Shown here: positions 19,486 to 61,208 of the stretch, in pieces
Position numbering within the stretch: position 1 is the first letter of the stretch
Layout: every line of letters begins with the position of its first letter
Assembly: GCA_024399965.1 (NCBI GenBank)
Contig: JAKSNJ010000005.1
Span: forward strand, 20,281-84,280
DNA from: Paludibacteraceae bacterium
Lineage (GTDB): Bacteria > Bacteroidota > Bacteroidia > Bacteroidales > Paludibacteraceae
Direction: 5' to 3'
DNA: 64,000 bases
Made by a program: the position numbers and the translations under genes
The notes under the pieces: model-generated
Told to the model about the DNA's origin: nothing
The model's input: only the letters and a program-made list of their open reading frames with translations
The model's database searches: none

Positions 19486-19517
19486 CTTGCGTATGTCAAA
19501 TTTTTTTTGTACTTTTG
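19486..19517 (+). promoter_or_regulatory. Bacteroidota-type promoter for the candidate RNA and MBOAT gene
   Basis: CTTG (one mismatch) at 19486-19489, 20 bp, TACTTTTG at 19510-19517. Its -7 half lies in the 55-bp direct repeat that recurs at 22621. Confidence 0.75.
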
Positions 19518-19555
19518 CGTCGCAAAACGGTGCTTAGAGCACTCCACAAAACTGC
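19501..19555 (+). repeat. 55-bp direct repeat, left copy
   Basis: Identical to 22621-22675 at 54 of 55 positions (A versus G at 19524/22644). It holds the spacer end and -7 box of a promoter, then a transcribed part with hairpin GTGCT-TAG-AGCAC. The copies bracket the candidate RNA and the MBOAT/SGNH genes, as left and right ends of an inserted segment would. Confidence 0.88.
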
Positions 19556-19850
19556 CGTCCACCGCGGACGTTAAAAGCGGAGACATATTGATTTAATAAG
19601 GCGTTTAACACGCTTTGTTCTTGGCACATGTGAACCTGAGAAATTCATAAAAGTTATAAACCAAGACGAAGTAACTAAGACGCCTACTAAGTGTGTATTC
19701 GTGTACAATGTGCTTTATTGATTATGGCATAGTGTACGTATATGTATACCACGGCGTAGGTTTAGAGTTGCTCGTTTCTGATTATAACTGGCAATCTCAG
19801 GGCCAACATGTGCAGGACGAGTAAACTACTCGAACCTGCGCTTTTTGTTT
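19524..19850 (+). ncRNA. Candidate structured RNA or long attenuator leader
   Basis: A roughly 330-nt stretch with a promoter at its 5' end, a strong terminator at its 3' end and no supported reading frame. Helices visible by eye are GTGCT/AGCAC (19530-19542), CGTCC/GGACG (19556-19570), GCGT/ACGC (19601-19613) and TCTTGG/CCAAGA (19619-19666). It does not show tmRNA or RNase P RNA landmarks. It could be a free-standing RNA such as a Bacteroidales 6S-like RNA, or a leader that controls read-through into the MBOAT gene 40 bp beyond the terminator. The 5' boundary is inferred from the promoter. Confidence 0.55.
19812..19850 (+). terminator. Rho-independent terminator ending the candidate RNA
   Basis: Hairpin GCAGG-ac-GAGTA-aac-TACTC-gaa-CCTGC (19812-19839), followed by GCTTTTTGTTTTG. 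It lies between the promoter at 19486 and the MBOAT start at 19893. Confidence 0.82.
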
Positions 19851-19892
19851 TGTAATAAGTGGAAAGCATAGGTTCATAAAATATAATGTACT

Positions 19893-21308
19893 ATGCTATT
19901 CAACTCACTGGAGTTCGCAATCTTTTTACCATTGGTGTTCCTGCTGTATTGGTTCGTCTTTGACTACGCCATGAAGCGGTGCCCCAAGCAATTACTATGG
20001 CAAAACCTATTCGTGGTTGTTGCCAGTTATGTCTTTTATGGATGGTGGGACTGGCGTTTCCTTATTCTTATTGCTTTCACCTCGTTCTGTTCGTGGGGTA
20101 GCGGTTTACTGATTGACAAGTCCCTTAAGCCCAAACTATGGCTAACCCTCAACATCGTCATTAACCTACTGATATTAGGTATTTTCAAATACTTTAATTT
20201 CTTTGTAGATAGTTTCTGTGACTTGTTTGGTTTGACCAATACAATAGTGATTAAGATCATTTTACCTGTCGGCATTTCATTTTATACCTTCCAAGCATTA
20301 TCCTATAGTATTGATGTCTATCGCAAGAAGATTGTCCCCACCAAAGATGTGGTGGCATTCTTTGCATACGTCAGTTTCTTTCCTCAATTGGTTGCAGGAC
20401 CTATCGAACGAGCAACCAATCTATTGCCACAATTTGAGAAGAAACGTGTATTTGATTATGCAGAAGCCGTCGATGGTATGCGACGTATTTTGTGGGGACT
20501 ATTCAAGAAAATAGTGGTGGCAGATAATTGTGCCACGTATGTAGATCAAGTATGGAATAATTATCAAAACGAATGTGGCAGTACACTTGCTTTGGCTGCC
20601 ATCTTATTTGCCTTTCAGATTTATGGTGACTTTTCCGGTTATTCGGATATAGCCATCGGTTCTGCCAAGTTGTTTGGTATTCGTCTGCGAGATAACTTCC
20701 TAACACCATATTTCTCTCGCAATATGGCTGAGTTTTGGAAACGGTGGCATATCTCACTTAATACATGGTTTGTAGATTATGTGTATATTCCTCTTGGCGG
20801 TAGTAGAGAAGGACGCTGGAAGACGATTCGTAATACATTTGTTATCTTTTTGTTGAGTGGTCTTTGGCACGGAGCGAATTGGACTTATGTTACTTGGGGC
20901 TTGTATCATGCTTTGTTATTTGTTCCACTTATTTTGTTGGGTCGTACAAAGGCATATCAGGGTACTGCTACTTGGAAACAAATTCCTCAAATTCTGCTCA
21001 CTTTTATCCTAGTTGTTATTGGTTGGATTATCTTCCGTGCCCCAAGTATCGTAGATGCATGGGGGTATATTTGTGGGATGATGAAACATTGGGGGATACC
21101 TAATATAATTAGTCCAACTTATATGTTACCCATGCCGTTTCTTATGCTTGTTTTTATTATACTTGAATGGAAACACCGTAATCAGCAGCACGGTTTAGAT
21201 ATTCCACAATTAGTATTATGGAAACGTTGGTTAGTTTATATAGGTATTTTTGTGTTAATATATACTTTTGGTGCCACAGCTGAAACTTTTATCTATTTCC
21301 AATTCTAA
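19893..21308 (+). CDS. MBOAT-family O-acyltransferase (AlgI-like)
   Basis: A 471-residue membrane protein with about ten hydrophobic segments, starting MLFNSLEFAIFLPLVFLLYW as in AlgI/PatA-type polysaccharide O-acetylation proteins (PF03062). Family hallmarks are VGISFYTFQALSYSIDVYR, FPQLVAGPIERA and the active-site region RWHISLNTWFVDYVYIPLGG, then LSGLWHGANWTYVTWG with the conserved catalytic His in WHG. It would move acyl groups across the inner membrane to a partner that modifies an exported glycan. The SGNH-like gene 5 bp downstream is the natural partner. The pair lies between 55-bp direct repeats and becomes increasingly AT-rich toward its 3' end. Confidence 0.93.
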   Translation: MLFNSLEFAIFLPLVFLLYWFVFDYAMKRCPKQLLWQNLFVVVASYVFYGWWDWRFLILIAFTSFCSWGSGLLIDKSLKPKLWLTLNIVINLLILGIFKYFNFFVDSFCDLFGLTNTIVIKIILPVGISFYTFQALSYSIDVYRKKIVPTKDVVAFFAYVSFFPQLVAGPIERATNLLPQFEKKRVFDYAEAVDGMRRILWGLFKKIVVADNCATYVDQVWNNYQNECGSTLALAAILFAFQIYGDFSGYSDIAIGSAKLFGIRLRDNFLTPYFSRNMAEFWKRWHISLNTWFVDYVYIPLGGSREGRWKTIRNTFVIFLLSGLWHGANWTYVTWGLYHALLFVPLILLGRTKAYQGTATWKQIPQILLTFILVVIGWIIFRAPSIVDAWGYICGMMKHWGIPNIISPTYMLPMPFLMLVFIILEWKHRNQQHGLDIPQLVLWKRWLVYIGIFVLIYTFGATAETFIYFQF

Positions 21309-21313
21309 AAAAA

Positions 21314-22318
21314 ATGATGCGAAAATTTGTTGTACATATAGTTATCTTTTTATTGATAATATTAGCATTAGCTACACTTGTTGACATTCTTGTTTCTCAA
21401 GGTTTACGGCACACCCCAAAGAACCATTTAGAAACAATGAATATGGTTATGAACGACTCGCCTAAATATGATGTGCTTATACTTGGCAATTCTCGCAGTG
21501 CAAATGGCTATGACCCATATATCTTAGATTCTATTTTGGGTTGCAATAGTTATAATTTGAGCACTTCTGGAAAATCATTTAGAATTAGCAATCTACGTTA
21601 TCAAGCATATCGACGCAATAATCCTGCACCTAAAATGCTTATTGTTAACATTGATCACATTGAACTAAGTGAGGGCACATTAGGTTTTGAGAATTATATG
21701 TTTTATCCTTACATTACAGATTCTTTAGTAAAACCTATATTAACAATGAATAATTTTGATTGGTTAGATCAGCATATTCCAATGTATCGTTATCGTGGTG
21801 ATTACAAATATATTTGTCTTGGATTGTGTGAATTATTGAACATCTATCATCTTAAGGGGAAGGGATATAAAGGTTATACTCCCAACCCAAATAATTCATG
21901 GAATGGAAACAATATGCATGCAGAAATTAGAAATAAACCACATCAACTTAATGTAGGATTGGATTCCGCAGTTTTAGAAATAGCGGATTCTTTTATGGAA
22001 CAAGTAAAAAAAGAAGGTGTACAAGTAGTTATGGTTTATTCTCCTCTATATTATCTAGTGCAAGAAAATTTATCGTCTAAATATGATACACTTAAATGCA
22101 CCTATGAAGCACTCAGTTTGAAGTACGACGTGCCTATTTTAGATTATCAGTCACTACCTATCAACCATGATAGTACATATTTTGCAGATGGGAATCATTT
22201 AAATCAGGCAGGAGCAGAATTATTTACTACGCTATTAGCGAAGGACATTGATTCATTACATCTTTTTAATCATAAAATTCTTCTAAACCATTCTTGTAAA
22301 GAGCAAATTCATGAGTGA
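21314..22318 (+). CDS. SGNH-hydrolase-like membrane-anchored protein, acylation partner of MBOAT
   Basis: 334 residues with one N-terminal transmembrane segment (about 5-28) and a periplasmic domain. The nucleophile block reads LILGNSRSANGYDP (about residues 56-69, Ser in GNSRS) and the catalytic Asp-His block DGNHLNQAG (about 296-304), as in AlgJ/AlgX/DUF1574-like partners of MBOAT proteins. It probably transfers acetyl groups to a secreted polysaccharide. The gene is much AT-richer than its flanks, a sign of transfer. Two ATGs (21314, 21317) are possible starts. Confidence 0.82.
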   Translation: MMRKFVVHIVIFLLIILALATLVDILVSQGLRHTPKNHLETMNMVMNDSPKYDVLILGNSRSANGYDPYILDSILGCNSYNLSTSGKSFRISNLRYQAYRRNNPAPKMLIVNIDHIELSEGTLGFENYMFYPYITDSLVKPILTMNNFDWLDQHIPMYRYRGDYKYICLGLCELLNIYHLKGKGYKGYTPNPNNSWNGNNMHAEIRNKPHQLNVGLDSAVLEIADSFMEQVKKEGVQVVMVYSPLYYLVQENLSSKYDTLKCTYEALSLKYDVPILDYQSLPINHDSTYFADGNHLNQAGAELFTTLLAKDIDSLHLFNHKILLNHSCKEQIHE

Positions 22319-22483
22319 CCTTCAAGCCGGCAAAAACTAGCAACTCAAATTACATACAAAATCTTACACATCGTCAGTCGCTCATTCCCCCTGTTTGCAC
22401 CTGTTTGCAACATAACATCAACATAACATAGTCGATGGGTATCAATACCGTTAAGGGAACCGATTTGCATCCAAAATTCACCC

Positions 22484-22527
22484 TCCGTGTATCGTTCGTC
22501 CATCGTTCGTATATCGTTGGTCTCGAG
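22484..22527. repeat. 11-bp tandem repeat, about four units
   Basis: Units tccgtgtatcg, ttcgtccatcg, ttcgtatatcg, ttggtctcgag. It starts with the same CCCTCCGT as the related array at 61144. It lies in the 22319-22683 gap, which otherwise holds the promoter and direct repeat of yigZ. A nearby CGAACGAT is the inverse of the unit core. Confidence 0.75.
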
Positions 22528-22605
22528 ATAGACGAACGATAAGGGGTACATCATTTCATCATTCAGCCACAAAGTGGCGGTTAAACACATCATTTTACAA
22601 AAAGA

Positions 22606-22637
22606 TTTGCGCATCTCGATTTTTTTTTGTACTTTTG
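22606..22637 (+). promoter_or_regulatory. Bacteroidota-type promoter for yigZ-like gene
   Basis: TTTG at 22606-22609, 20 bp, TACTTTTG at 22630-22637, giving a leader of about 40 nt before the ATG at 22684. Confidence 0.85.
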
Positions 22638-22675
22638 CGTCGCGAAACGGTGCTTAGAGCACTCCACAAAACTGC
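22621..22675 (+). repeat. 55-bp direct repeat, right copy
   Basis: Copy of 19501-19555 with one difference. It contains the -7 box and most of the 5' leader of the yigZ-like gene. Confidence 0.88.
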
Positions 22676-22683
22676 AAGCCGTT

Positions 22684-23052
22684 ATGGTTTACGAAGGAAT
22701 ATACAAGGACAGAGGAAGTAAATTCTTGGCTTTTGCAGAGCCAATCAGCAACGAAGAAGAAGCCAAAGAACGAATAGCATGGTACAAAAAGAAATACCAT
22801 GACGCACGGCATGTATGTTACGCATACCGCCTCGGTGAAAACCTCTTCCGCACTAAAGATGACGGAGAGCCGCACGGCACCGCCGGCATACCTATATTAC
22901 GTGCCATAGATGCTGCCAAATTGGACAATATATTAGTGGTGGTGGTGCGCTACTTCGGCGGTACTCTACTCGGCACCGGCGGACTGATGGTTGCCTACAG
23001 AGAGGCCACAAGAGCTGCGGTGAGGGGTTGGACCGCTACGCTGATGGAATAA
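22684..23052 (+). CDS. YigZ/IMPACT-family protein, N-terminal domain only
   Basis: 122 residues matching the N-terminal UPF0029 domain (PF01205) of YigZ/IMPACT proteins: SKFLAFAEPISNEEEAK, ARHVCYAYRLG, DDGEPHGTAGIPIL and VVVRYFGGTLLGTGGL. Full-length YigZ is about 200 residues with a C-terminal DUF1949 domain, absent here. The last codons and stop (about GWTATLME) come from a dispersed repeat that continues to 23134 and recurs at 44964, so the repeat may have cut off the second domain. The start is set at 22684, because an upstream in-frame ATG lies in the promoter repeat. Confidence 0.88.
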   Translation: MVYEGIYKDRGSKFLAFAEPISNEEEAKERIAWYKKKYHDARHVCYAYRLGENLFRTKDDGEPHGTAGIPILRAIDAAKLDNILVVVVRYFGGTLLGTGGLMVAYREATRAAVRGWTATLME

Positions 23053-58067: not shown

Positions 58068-60332
58068 TTATTCTGCTTTAGTGTCCCAAATCATAGTCTT
58101 GTAGTCGATAGGCAATGTCATTTCACCACCATCATTCTTAATCAAGAATACTTCCATAGGACGAAGTTTGAGTTTGGCGTTAGGGGATTCAAGACTTAAC
58201 TCTGTCACCGATTTCCACTGGTATACCTTATTTGGTTGATTTACGCACTTGTAATAATATACAGCGAGGTTATCTGAACTGCCACTGAATTGTTCTTTAA
58301 TAGCTTTCAGCAATGTCTTAACATCCATTTCTGCTACGTAACTATTACCAAATCCGTTCCAGAAATTAGCACGCAAAGTCATTGTCTTGCTGGTATTACC
58401 TACCAATTTACCTTTGAATGTGTATTTAACACCGGGAGTTTGATTATATGTCAAGAATTGGTAGTTAACAAATGGATCATTCAAATCATTGACATCTAAA
58501 TCTTTTTTGTGATTAGGATTCGCAACATTACGATTCAAGAAACCAAGCTCTTGCCAACTTTCCGTATCATAGTTATATTTCTCAAAATATGTTTCAACAT
58601 TGTCTTCGCAAGATAACTCATCAACTACGAAACCGAAAGGAATAGCGACACGCTCATATAAATAAGCAGGAGCATCTACGAATGAACGAGTAGTCAATTC
58701 AACAGTGGCACGAGGAGTGGTGTTGAAGGTAACTTCAGGATTAATCAGCAATTGACCATAGTCGGTTGCATCAGCTTCTATAATTATGTTGTCATTAGAA
58801 GTAGAAATGATACCTTGTTTGGAAGTAACCACCACCATTGCTTTGGGTTCAATAACAAGAACTGCATCTTGGCTCAAAGCAACTTCTCCAACATTGAGAC
58901 GAGCACCTGCTTTAACAACCACTTTATCATTACCAACTACGGCAAGGTATTCAACATTTTTCGTACCTGTAATTTCAGTTACTATTTGATTATCTAAATC
59001 TTGGTTGTTTAATTTTACATAACTATTTTCAGTGTTGAAGTCTTGTTTCCAAGTTTCACCTTGAGGAAGGTTACCAATCGTCCAGTAAGTATCACCTTTA
59101 TCATCATTCCAATAAGTGATAACACCATCTACGTTAGATACAAATTCTGAGATGTCAGAACTGAAAGTACCACCTGTCAATGTACCATTGTCAGCAATAT
59201 GTTGTTTTTCTTGGTCCGTAGCAACAATAGCTCCTAATTCGCCCTCAACATTACCGGCAGAGATATTAACAGCAGGTAATTTATCATCACCTTTGGTTGC
59301 AACCTCTTCTATACCATAACCACTATTAGACGATATATTTGCATCTCCTTTGATTGTAAGTGACATTCCGTCTTTCACATATCCGTCGTGCGAATCTACT
59401 ATGATTGCCGAACCAGAAGCATCAGCTCCATCCCCATTTGGAATAGGAGTAGAGTAATTTTCAGAAGTACATAGAACATGAGTTCCATCCAAGGTAAGTT
59501 GACCACCCTTGATGTAAATACCGACCTCATCACCTATAAGTTCAGCAGCTCCAATGTTCCATATAGCATACCCACCTGCAAAGAGCGAATAAGCACCACC
59601 ATAAATATAAGCACCATCGTGAATATTAATTTGAGGTACATTACCAGTCGTTTGTTTGATATTGCCCAACACCCAAATTCCCACATAGTTAGGTGCGTTA
59701 ACACTTCCGTCAATATCCACCTTTATACCATATCCACACTTTGTTTTACCTGAGACACCAGATTGGAAAAGGAGAATGCCATATTGTTCAATATTCAAAG
59801 TCACATTCTCACCTAATTTAAAGTAAGAATAAACATTATCGTCCGAAACAGAACGGCCAAATAAAGCAACGCGATTTGATACATTCATCGTGGCTTGTTT
59901 AGAAGAACTATTGATGACTTGCAACTTACCTCCAGCAGAATCATCGTTTTTACCAATGGCAAAACCAGCAAGAGTCAAGGTGTTTCCTGCAAGGTCAATG
60001 ATATACTCTCTACCATAAATACCATAGAGAGCGTCATCTGTTTCAGAAAAATCATCCAATAATGTTATTTTTCCTATTTCCCCTTCGTCAACGGCTTTTT
60101 TGGCATCAAGGAAAGTTGCAAAATATAAAGTAGTTTCTCCAACTTCCAATTTAATTAAATCCCCCTCCTCTTTAGTTGCATGCCCATTGGTAGCATCCAA
60201 CTTACGGGCGTGTGGGTGGTTCGTTTCAGCAACATCTAATCTGCCCTCAATAGTAGGACAATTAATTGCTTTCGCTTGTCCGCTAATCAGCAACGCTGTT
60301 GCCATTAGCATGTAAGAAAATAGTTTTTTCAT
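58068..60332 (-). CDS. Large exported protein, beta-helix-like adhesin candidate
   Basis: 754 residues with signal peptide MKKLFSYMLMATALLISGQAKA. Residues about 60-420 form a regular series of short hydrophobic strands and Asn/Gly turns (LAGNTLTLAGFAIGKNDD, VNAPNYVGIWVLGN, GIYIKGGQLTLDGTHVL) that reads like a right-handed beta-helix. A second part (about 470-754) has ILVIEPKAMVVVTSKQG-like strands and a C-terminal domain with LKLRPMEVFLIKNDGGEM. It lacks the shared tail. First large gene of the minus-strand surface locus; a peptide gene follows 4 bp on. Confidence 0.74.
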   Translation of the reverse strand: MKKLFSYMLMATALLISGQAKAINCPTIEGRLDVAETNHPHARKLDATNGHATKEEGDLIKLEVGETTLYFATFLDAKKAVDEGEIGKITLLDDFSETDDALYGIYGREYIIDLAGNTLTLAGFAIGKNDDSAGGKLQVINSSSKQATMNVSNRVALFGRSVSDDNVYSYFKLGENVTLNIEQYGILLFQSGVSGKTKCGYGIKVDIDGSVNAPNYVGIWVLGNIKQTTGNVPQINIHDGAYIYGGAYSLFAGGYAIWNIGAAELIGDEVGIYIKGGQLTLDGTHVLCTSENYSTPIPNGDGADASGSAIIVDSHDGYVKDGMSLTIKGDANISSNSGYGIEEVATKGDDKLPAVNISAGNVEGELGAIVATDQEKQHIADNGTLTGGTFSSDISEFVSNVDGVITYWNDDKGDTYWTIGNLPQGETWKQDFNTENSYVKLNNQDLDNQIVTEITGTKNVEYLAVVGNDKVVVKAGARLNVGEVALSQDAVLVIEPKAMVVVTSKQGIISTSNDNIIIEADATDYGQLLINPEVTFNTTPRATVELTTRSFVDAPAYLYERVAIPFGFVVDELSCEDNVETYFEKYNYDTESWQELGFLNRNVANPNHKKDLDVNDLNDPFVNYQFLTYNQTPGVKYTFKGKLVGNTSKTMTLRANFWNGFGNSYVAEMDVKTLLKAIKEQFSGSSDNLAVYYYKCVNQPNKVYQWKSVTELSLESPNAKLKLRPMEVFLIKNDGGEMTLPIDYKTMIWDTKAE

Positions 60333-60499: not shown

Positions 60500-60631
60500 T
60501 TATCTTTTTTCTTCATCATTATCAATTTCATCATGGTGGTCGTAATAGTAGCGTTCACACTGGCGATAATAGTCCTCCTTTAACCTGCGATGCCGCAAAG
60601 ATGGAATAAAGATTTCTAATAGTTTTGACAT
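60500..60631 (-). CDS. Possible small basic/aromatic peptide
   Basis: A 43-codon frame, product starting MSKLLEIFIPSLRHRRLKED and continuing with Tyr- and His-rich sequence (YYRQCERYYYDHHDE) and an acidic end. There is an A-rich but weak ribosome-binding region upstream. It has no resemblance to the K-x-Y-x-x-P peptides. It lies between the candidate terminator at 60685 and the 754-residue gene, and could be a real gene or a chance frame. Confidence 0.4.
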   Translation of the reverse strand: MSKLLEIFIPSLRHRRLKEDYYRQCERYYYDHHDEIDNDEEKR

Positions 60632-60684
60632 ATTGTTTGGTTTTTCTTGGTTTTCAATAGATTAAATTACACGCCCTGACACAC

Positions 60685-60717
60685 AAAAAAAGCGGGACTG
60701 CACTATTGCTGTCTCGC
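60685..60717 (-). terminator. Probable Rho-independent terminator of the upstream leader or RNA
   Basis: On the minus strand AGCGAGAC-AGC ... GC-A-GTCCCGCT forms a stem with one A/C mismatch and a bulge, followed by seven T. It lies about 350 bp downstream of the promoter at 61040-61071 and before the exported-protein genes. Confidence 0.6.
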
Positions 60718-61033
60718 TCATCAGGGCTCTGGTATCGCCTGCAATTCCAAACAAACAACATTGAAGCCCACGCCGAATATGCACGCGCGCGTACCATAAT
60801 ATATAGTACGCACGGAATATGACGCATATCCCGAGGGCATCTTTGTTTTCCTTGTTTCGGAATTTTATGAATTTACCAGATTCTGATGAGCCAAAACAAA
60901 GCACAAATATGCCTTTTATGTATGTCACAAAACCCATGTAGGAGGGATATCAAGAGACGCTTCTCTACCCCCGATGGGTGTGACCGGCAGAGCCGTATCC
61001 TCCCACCCTCTAACCCTACGTGAGCTTTTGATT
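60685..61033 (-). ncRNA. Candidate structured RNA or leader before the surface-protein locus
   Basis: About 350 nt between a consensus minus-strand promoter and a terminator-like hairpin. Near the 5' end ACCCTA and TAGGGT can pair (61013-61038). Next are CGGC-tct-GCCG and CACCC..GGGGG pairs, and farther on GCGTAC ... GTACGC. A 91-codon frame at 60662-60937 crosses it but ends beyond the terminator and has no family features, so it is not called. It may be a stand-alone RNA or an attenuator controlling the genes from 60631 downward. Confidence 0.5.
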
Positions 61034-61039
61034 AGGGTG

Positions 61040-61071
61040 CAAAGGTACAACATATTTATGACATTTGCAAA
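61040..61071 (-). promoter_or_regulatory. Bacteroidota-type promoter for the candidate RNA / surface locus
   Basis: On the minus strand TTTG (61071-61068), 20 bp, TACCTTTG (61047-61040). Confidence 0.85.
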
Positions 61072-61143
61072 TTTTTGGGGTAGAAAACTTACGATTTTTA
61101 AGATTTTGCAACATATTTGGGTTAAAAAATCGTTAAATTGCCC

Positions 61144-61187
61144 TCCGTCCACCGTCCGTATATCGTTCGTATATCGTTCGTATACCC
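61144..61187. repeat. 11-bp tandem repeat, four units
   Basis: Units tccgtccaccg, tccgtatatcg, ttcgtatatcg, ttcgtatacc. It starts CCCTCCGT like the array at 22484. Confidence 0.8.
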
Positions 61188-61208
61188 AAGGCAACTTACT
61201 TTTTTTAA

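Follow-up and report, generated by a model that had tools for sequence, protein, structure and literature searches.

Whether a structured non-coding stretch between gcvP and yigZ of a Paludibacteraceae bacterium is part of an inserted gene cassette or an RNA in its own right is the question raised by the locus described here. The locus lies in a window of 64,000 nucleotides (nt) of contig JAKSNJ010000005.1 (positions 20,281 to 84,280), from a draft genome of 1.66 Mb that is 83% complete, and consists of two near-identical direct repeats bracketing the non-coding stretch, a gene for an MBOAT O-acyltransferase and a gene for an SGNH-like protein. The original prediction, made from the letters alone, had described these as an acylation cassette with a candidate RNA. 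The RNA is an independent family and not a cassette part; the idea that it belongs to MBOAT was rejected, as it precedes the MBOAT gene in the window but does so at only 3 of the 13 other MBOAT loci scanned. It is almost certainly a real structured RNA, acting in cis and lying outside Rfam, and the local structure that had been predicted proved to be one member of a large RNA family. Judged from sequence, it is probably a transcription-attenuation leader working by regulated termination and shared by accessory genes.

A sequence search with the RNA stretch matched several genomes of the same genus, and a covariance model, R1, which covers the 5′ domain alone, was built from seven copies including that of the window. 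With R1 at E ≤ 0.01 the RNA was found in 163 of 178 genomes of the genus, with up to 18 copies in each and seven in this genome, and in 52 of 101 genomes of the family, across 19 of its 33 genera. At E ≤ 0.001 it was found in 12 of 198 genomes of the order, namely that of the window, two from the same family and nine from other families, and in 1 of 296 genomes taken across the phylum, again the window's own; this last result also serves as a check on the specificity of R1. The exact core pattern is present in 84 genome stretches. The window itself holds a second copy, which lies with the start of a frame of 43 amino acids in a block of 621 base pairs (bp) (window 60583-61203) identical to G000:C43:3207-3827 (L047). 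Beyond the block the remainder of the frame is similar, not identical, and the block looks like a recent recombination between two RNA-led loci.

At gathering score Rfam 15 returned only a tRNA from the window and nothing from ten loci with copies of the RNA; at loose E-values there were weak matches to eukaryotic families far below the cut-off (mir-4012, TtnuHACA8, mir-33 and mir-1277), with none for L094. A 2017 paper of Weinberg's, which reportedly covers 224 candidate RNAs, lay outside the literature comparison. Within the literature compared, from which supplementary lists such as the 3161 candidates of PMC8040213 were left aside, no description of this RNA was found. Judged by Rfam and literature searches only, the family is apparently undescribed.

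The fold was assessed on 139 hits of R1, which reduce to 121 unique copies. R1 itself excludes the 3′ domain, for which a text pattern was used that 107 copies pass and 14 fail. One of those passing, L046, did so spuriously and was left out, leaving 106 copies for the tests of the helices PK-A, PK-B and PK-C, with 105 in the tests of the terminator and of helices Px, P0, P1 and P2, and 104 in the count of G.T and A.C pairs. Covariation was tested by comparing the pairing of a strand with its own partner and with the partner from other copies, using permutations in which relatedness was not preserved. Mean pairing with the own partner was higher for PK-A (7.47 against 5.31, 73 distinct helices), PK-B (7.13 against 5.09, 24 distinct helices) and PK-C (7.95 against 7.12, 49 distinct helices), with 0 of 2000 permutations in each case. 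PK-A is the strongest case of covariation, the own partner exceeding the median other partner in 96 of 106 copies. The local helix Px (6.08 against 5.64) and the arms of the terminator (5.38 against 4.90) also covary, both with 0 of 2000 permutations; P2 gave no clear result (121 of 2000) and is too conserved for a good test. No covariation was seen in three control pairs of regions (683, 244 and 638 of 1000 permutations). Of 105 copies, 97 have bases in common between a terminator arm and PK-C. The window copy has about 8 paired nt in common, and its calculated energies are -13.1 kcal/mol for the terminator hairpin and -11.2 kcal/mol for the PK-C duplex. On the sense strand G.T pairs outnumber A.C pairs in Px (80:10), P2 (40:14) and PK-C (77:5). 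An early RNAalifold fold of seven copies was set aside because it is nested and unable to show long-range helices.

The surroundings of the copies are those of a leader. The sequence TAnnTTTG, which we take to be the Bacteroidales-type -7 box, lies 20-170 nt upstream of 92 of 118 copies, as against 15 on the opposite strand. Of 120 copies, 17 have no neighbour that can be called, some of them because they lie at locus ends; 95 are followed by a gene in the same orientation, at a median distance of 70 nt, and 8 by one in the opposite orientation. In at least one of these 8, L113, the open reading frame picker had taken a longer antisense frame, and a same-strand frame of secreted type lies 52 nt downstream. 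Behind the terminator a -7 box occurs within 120 nt in only 8 of 106 copies, and the client gene therefore usually depends on read-through. An upstream GAYGU..AAA element was rejected as a feature of the family, being found in 22 of 121 copies only. Were the RNA instead a stand-alone small RNA of about 300 nt that acts in trans, the adjoining gene would be incidental. Having its own promoter and terminator and several copies per genome would suit such a molecule, but with a same-strand gene following so closely in 95 of 103 callable copies, and so few promoters behind the terminator, we consider it improbable.

The 95 same-strand client proteins form 57 clusters, of which the largest, with 22 members, is exemplified by a BspA-type leucine-rich-repeat protein and another, with 11, is a secreted-type family; other clients, by reading, resemble methyltransferases, kinases, proteins of the metallo-beta-lactamase fold and glycan enzymes. 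A simple rule of our own calls signal peptides in 54 of the 95 clients, compared with 81 of the 270 other proteins encoded at these loci (Fisher p = 6.8e-6). Of two properties expected of a riboswitch, a structured leader just upstream on the same strand is found in those 95 of 103 callable copies, and a pathway shared by the clients is not, the bias being to signal peptides only. The generality of the RNA is its unusual feature: dozens of unrelated genes follow the same leader, which favours either a signal in wide use or a general licence for the expression of such genes. The diversity of clients fits a general licence better than a metabolite signal, and would suit an RNA that modified RNA polymerase or recruited an elongation factor, in processive antitermination with no small ligand. 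Against this, the RNA ends in a terminator of its own that overlaps PK-C, which is the layout of a local expression platform, and this explanation seems unlikely.

The order of elements (promoter, folded domain, antiterminator overlapping a terminator, and then the gene) is that of a transcription-attenuation leader, as in riboswitches. Worded as a model, the leader would act in cis, with the promoter of repeat copy 1 driving its transcription. Its 5′ domain (Px, P2 and a small hairpin) would dock on the 3′ domain through PK-A and PK-B, and docking would present UUGCUCGUUU for pairing with GGACGAGUAA, forming PK-C. This pairing would break the terminator hairpin and allow RNA polymerase to read into the downstream gene, whereas in the undocked state the terminator would form and transcription would stop. 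The client here would be the MBOAT/SGNH operon, and at other copies unrelated genes, often exported or accessory, would be the clients. The helices, the shape of the terminator, its overlap with PK-C and the bias in strand and distance of the next gene are read from the sequences; from these we infer transcription, switching and the direction of switching, and a trigger that may be a small molecule, a protein or a polymerase factor.

Several results weigh against this model. The helices of PK-B and PK-C are common to many copies, and of 106 copies only 45 (PK-B) and 49 (PK-C) have an own partner that exceeds the median other partner. Two helices of the first model and of R1 were discarded, the outer helix P0 (AGAC with GUCU) being unsupported (476 of 2000 permutations) and the hairpin P1 (GCGU with ACGC) marginal (85 of 2000). 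In PK-A it is A.C that exceeds G.T (43:11), which arises partly from the extension rule used. Of the 14 copies that fail the 3′-domain pattern, L088 and L092 run into contig ends, ten were read by eye and the other two are L229 and L201; of the ten, seven have the domain and L208, L173 and L202 are without it. The overlap between PK-C and the terminator is small, on average 1.9 nt of a longest unbroken helix of 5.6 nt, by a conservative measure. The permutations ignore relatedness; what carries weight is how many distinct helices there are and that the controls are flat. Lastly, clients without a common theme or pathway are unlike those of most metabolite riboswitches. That the RNA is a new class of switch, possibly sensing a small signalling molecule, and a portable leader for a large set of accessory exported, glycan-modifying and defence-like genes, also carried on plasmids of human gut bacteria, is put forward only tentatively.

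Table 1. Positions in the window of the leader RNA, its helices and the neighbouring features.
Feature	Position	Strand	Remarks
Leader RNA	19556-19847	+	Conserved core from 19581; R1 match 19581-19692, 96.9 bits; homologues; terminator end
Px, 5′ strand	19599-19606	+	Partner 19678-19685; covaries
Px, 3′ strand	19678-19685	+	Partner 19599-19606
P2, 5′ strand	19613-19624	+	Partner 19661-19671
P2, 3′ strand	19661-19671	+	Partner 19613-19624
PK-B, 5′ strand, long-range	19635-19641	+	Partner 19795-19801
PK-B, 3′ strand	19795-19801	+	Partner 19635-19641
PK-A, 5′ strand, long-range	19652-19659	+	Partner 19782-19789
PK-A, 3′ strand	19782-19789	+	Partner 19652-19659
PK-C, proposed antiterminator strand	19768-19777	+	Partner 19815-19824
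Intrinsic-terminator-like hairpin (19812-19839) and T-run	19812-19846	+	5′ arm contains PK-C partner 19815-19824; arms covary
Second leader RNA copy	60685-60929	-	R1 74.4 bits; before 43-amino-acid frame (60500-60631) and 754-amino-acid protein (58068-60332)
Repeat copy 1	19487-19555	+	Promoter (-7 box 19510) and leader hairpin 19530-19542; probable old yigZ promoter position
MBOAT O-acyltransferase, client gene	19893-21308	+	PF03062; similar to DltB chains 6bug, 8jem
SGNH/AlgX-like protein, second gene of unit	21314-22318	+	Weak PF16822 match
Repeat copy 2	22607-22675	+	Promoter (-7 box 22630) and hairpin 22650-22662; now before yigZ
yigZ-like gene	22684-23052	+	PF01205; ATG start; longer TTG frame from 22627 inside repeat

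The RNA also occurs on plasmids. When a copy from another Bacteroidales family was used as query it matched plasmids of Phocaeicola dorei and P. vulgatus (72% over 95% of the length), carried by strains CL06T03C03 and CL10T00C06, at a place with no annotated feature beneath the match. The copies on the plasmids of the two species, L285 5992-6250 (NZ_CP072250.1) and L286 2992-3250 (NZ_CP096966.1), are identical, which suggests spread by plasmid between gut species. R1 scores the plasmid copy at 37.7 bits; by eye PK-A (ACAGAAGU with ACUUCUGU), PK-B and PK-C are kept, and the copy ends 63 nt before a same-strand gene whose product, a hypothetical protein, seems by reading to begin with a signal peptide. 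A genus-type query found no match among plasmids, a third query gave a partial match to the same two Phocaeicola plasmids, and the plasmid copy as query finds only itself among plasmids. Carriage by phages was rejected, the exact core pattern being absent from viral contigs and two queries giving no match in phage records. Presence on plasmids, portability before unrelated genes and the 621-bp identical block with an RNA copy at two genome sites could also be accounted for by an element working at the level of DNA, a folded single-strand site for recombination or capture that brings in accessory genes. Against such a site stand the excess of G.T pairs on the sense strand of Px, P2 and PK-C, the presence of promoter and T-run on one strand, and a cassette without a recombinase gene; we hold this to be very improbable.

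The gene content foreseen between the repeats stands for the non-coding stretch and for MBOAT, which matches PF03062 with E=4.8e-31 (108.7 bits against a cut-off of 27); for the SGNH-like protein there is only weak similarity, the best match being to PF16822 with E=0.0065 (16.6 bits, below the cut-off of 26.5). DltB/DltD and AlgI/AlgX are pairs of MBOAT and SGNH proteins that carry out O-acylation. As in these pairs, an MBOAT domain with similarity to DltB chains is followed in the window by a weakly SGNH/AlgX-like protein, and the operon probably O-acylates a surface or secreted glycan. Unlike in these pairs, the two proteins differ widely in conservation: the MBOAT is 83% identical to that of G122 and 78% to that of G123, both at other sites, and the partners behind them (window 21314-22318, L146 6729-7685, L147 6924-7829) are only 25% (G122) and 21% (G123) identical, as though they had been exchanged or were subject to diversifying selection. 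The GC content falls across the cassette, from 49.9% in gcvP to 40.0, 41.1 and 36.0% in the thirds of the MBOAT gene and 32.2% in the SGNH gene, with 50.1% in yigZ and 45.5% in the window; the drop claimed within the SGNH gene is not there, its halves having 31.7 and 32.8%. The integrase said to be missing is indeed not visible: between the repeats no long sense frames other than MBOAT and SGNH are present, and neither these frames nor a family search of the two revealed a transposase or recombinase in the repeat-bounded element.

Comparison of the neighbourhood of yigZ, which is present in 27 of 28 same-genus genomes searched, supports the proposed insertion. In G017 and G043 (a gap of about 0.6 kb) and G008 (about 0.17 kb) gcvP adjoins yigZ, always divergent and without the cassette, and no MBOAT gene lies within 1.5 kb of yigZ in any of 26 other genomes. 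In 23 of these 26 gcvP is not found within 1.5 kb of yigZ either, so that the neighbourhood of yigZ itself moves, which argues against a simple insertion story. By reading, L120 and L121 have a gene for a small exported protein between gcvP and yigZ, where the window has the cassette. The yigZ of G017 and G043 has one promoter, without the hairpin. Aligned with the flanks of these promoters, the flank of repeat copy 1 scores 59 and 51 and that of copy 2 scores 32 and 32, all four exceeding 500 of 500 shuffles. Because its flank aligns better, the old yigZ promoter is probably copy 1, with copy 2 as its replacement, in keeping with the predicted regeneration of the promoter. Most likely the unit entered beside the old yigZ promoter and sits just downstream of it, and the promoter-leader copy 2 now serves yigZ.

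The repeat itself is less particular than it had appeared. A repeat search of the window gave a pair of 69 nt with 93% identity, in the 3′ 55 nt of which the predicted 54 matches hold, with one position differing; both copies carry, as described, the -7 box TAnnTTTG and the leader hairpin. The 5′ half is a Bacteroidales-type promoter and the 3′ half contains the palindrome GTGCTTAGAGCAC (or GTGCTTGGAGCAC). A 221-base query from 19480, run against the window's own genome with the best 40 of 72 candidates scored, gave at least 26 matches including itself and copy 2; at least 22 further matches fall on the promoter stretch (query positions 2-72), two of them extending into the hairpin, and two others lie within the RNA. 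The promoter half is not special in this genome. Exact copies of the hairpin number 5 in this genome, 24 in G043, 22 in G017, 6 in G009, 2 in G122 and 1 in G021, with none in G005, G007 and G003, and a reversed control pattern occurs at most once per genome. A -7 box directly precedes the hairpin in 4 of 5 cases in this genome, and most of those read in relatives are without one. The repeat is thus a common promoter with a dispersed hairpin, and not the cassette-specific end or capture site that had been suggested. Each half recurs separately in the way that the original prediction had set against insertion (many unrelated leaders), but the whole 55 nt does not. At other sites of relatives no shared repeat ends were found around the RNA and MBOAT genes, L147 being without a flanking repeat of at least 25 nt and L146 having a promoter-like pair of 71 nt with 85% identity.

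There is an even chance that the two copies are a dispersed hairpin placed independently behind two ordinary promoters, or a product of recombination between promoters, rather than the mark of a defined element that inserted. The recurrence of the promoter half, the scatter of the hairpin, its position behind a -7 box here and the promoter-like pair around the unit of G122 all fit this explanation, but the copies share 54 of 55 nt including a stretch past the hairpin, compared with 82-84% for the other two hairpin leaders. A REP/RAYT origin of the hairpin was rejected because the Y1 transposase (PF01797) is missing where copies are most numerous; it is absent from G000, G017 and G043 and present in 3 of 9 genomes (G009, G003 and G007), of which only G009 has hairpins. 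The hairpin GTGCTTAGAGCAC is mostly followed by A/T-CCA and recalls the acceptor minihelix of a tRNA and its CCA end (loci L247-L276, window 19530-19542 and 22650-22662); with up to 24 per genome, it stands at times in close pairs. By reading, in L073, L074 and L075 (G017) it is in frame with some gene ends, where it would encode an RCLEHS-like tail, and the same letters recur within the window's TTG frame of yigZ.

Among structured RNAs of the same bacteria are Bacteroidales-1, Bacteroides-1 and other Bacteroidetes motifs (PMC2864571); as far as the motifs of that paper are present in Rfam, they differ from this RNA in giving no gathering-score match to it. Being intricate, frequent in rumen and gut Bacteroidales and without a match in Rfam, the RNA described here is a strong candidate for an orphan class of regulator. 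A single leader shared by dozens of unrelated genes, often for exported proteins, would suggest a common regulatory input for the accessory surface and secreted proteins of gut bacteria, and the plasmid copies in two cultured Phocaeicola strains make the RNA testable now. EAR (the epsC motif) and put are RNAs of processive antitermination. Like them, this RNA is a leader with a pseudoknot and is tied to surface and accessory genes; unlike them, it is directly followed by a terminator that overlaps its structure, and by Rfam it is not homologous. The c-di-GMP-I class comprises transcription-terminating riboswitches used in many copies. The RNA described here is unlike these in having no sequence or covariance match in Rfam 15 and in the 57 clusters of its clients, and like them in its leader position, pseudoknotted fold, antiterminator/terminator layout, many copies per genome and many exported clients.

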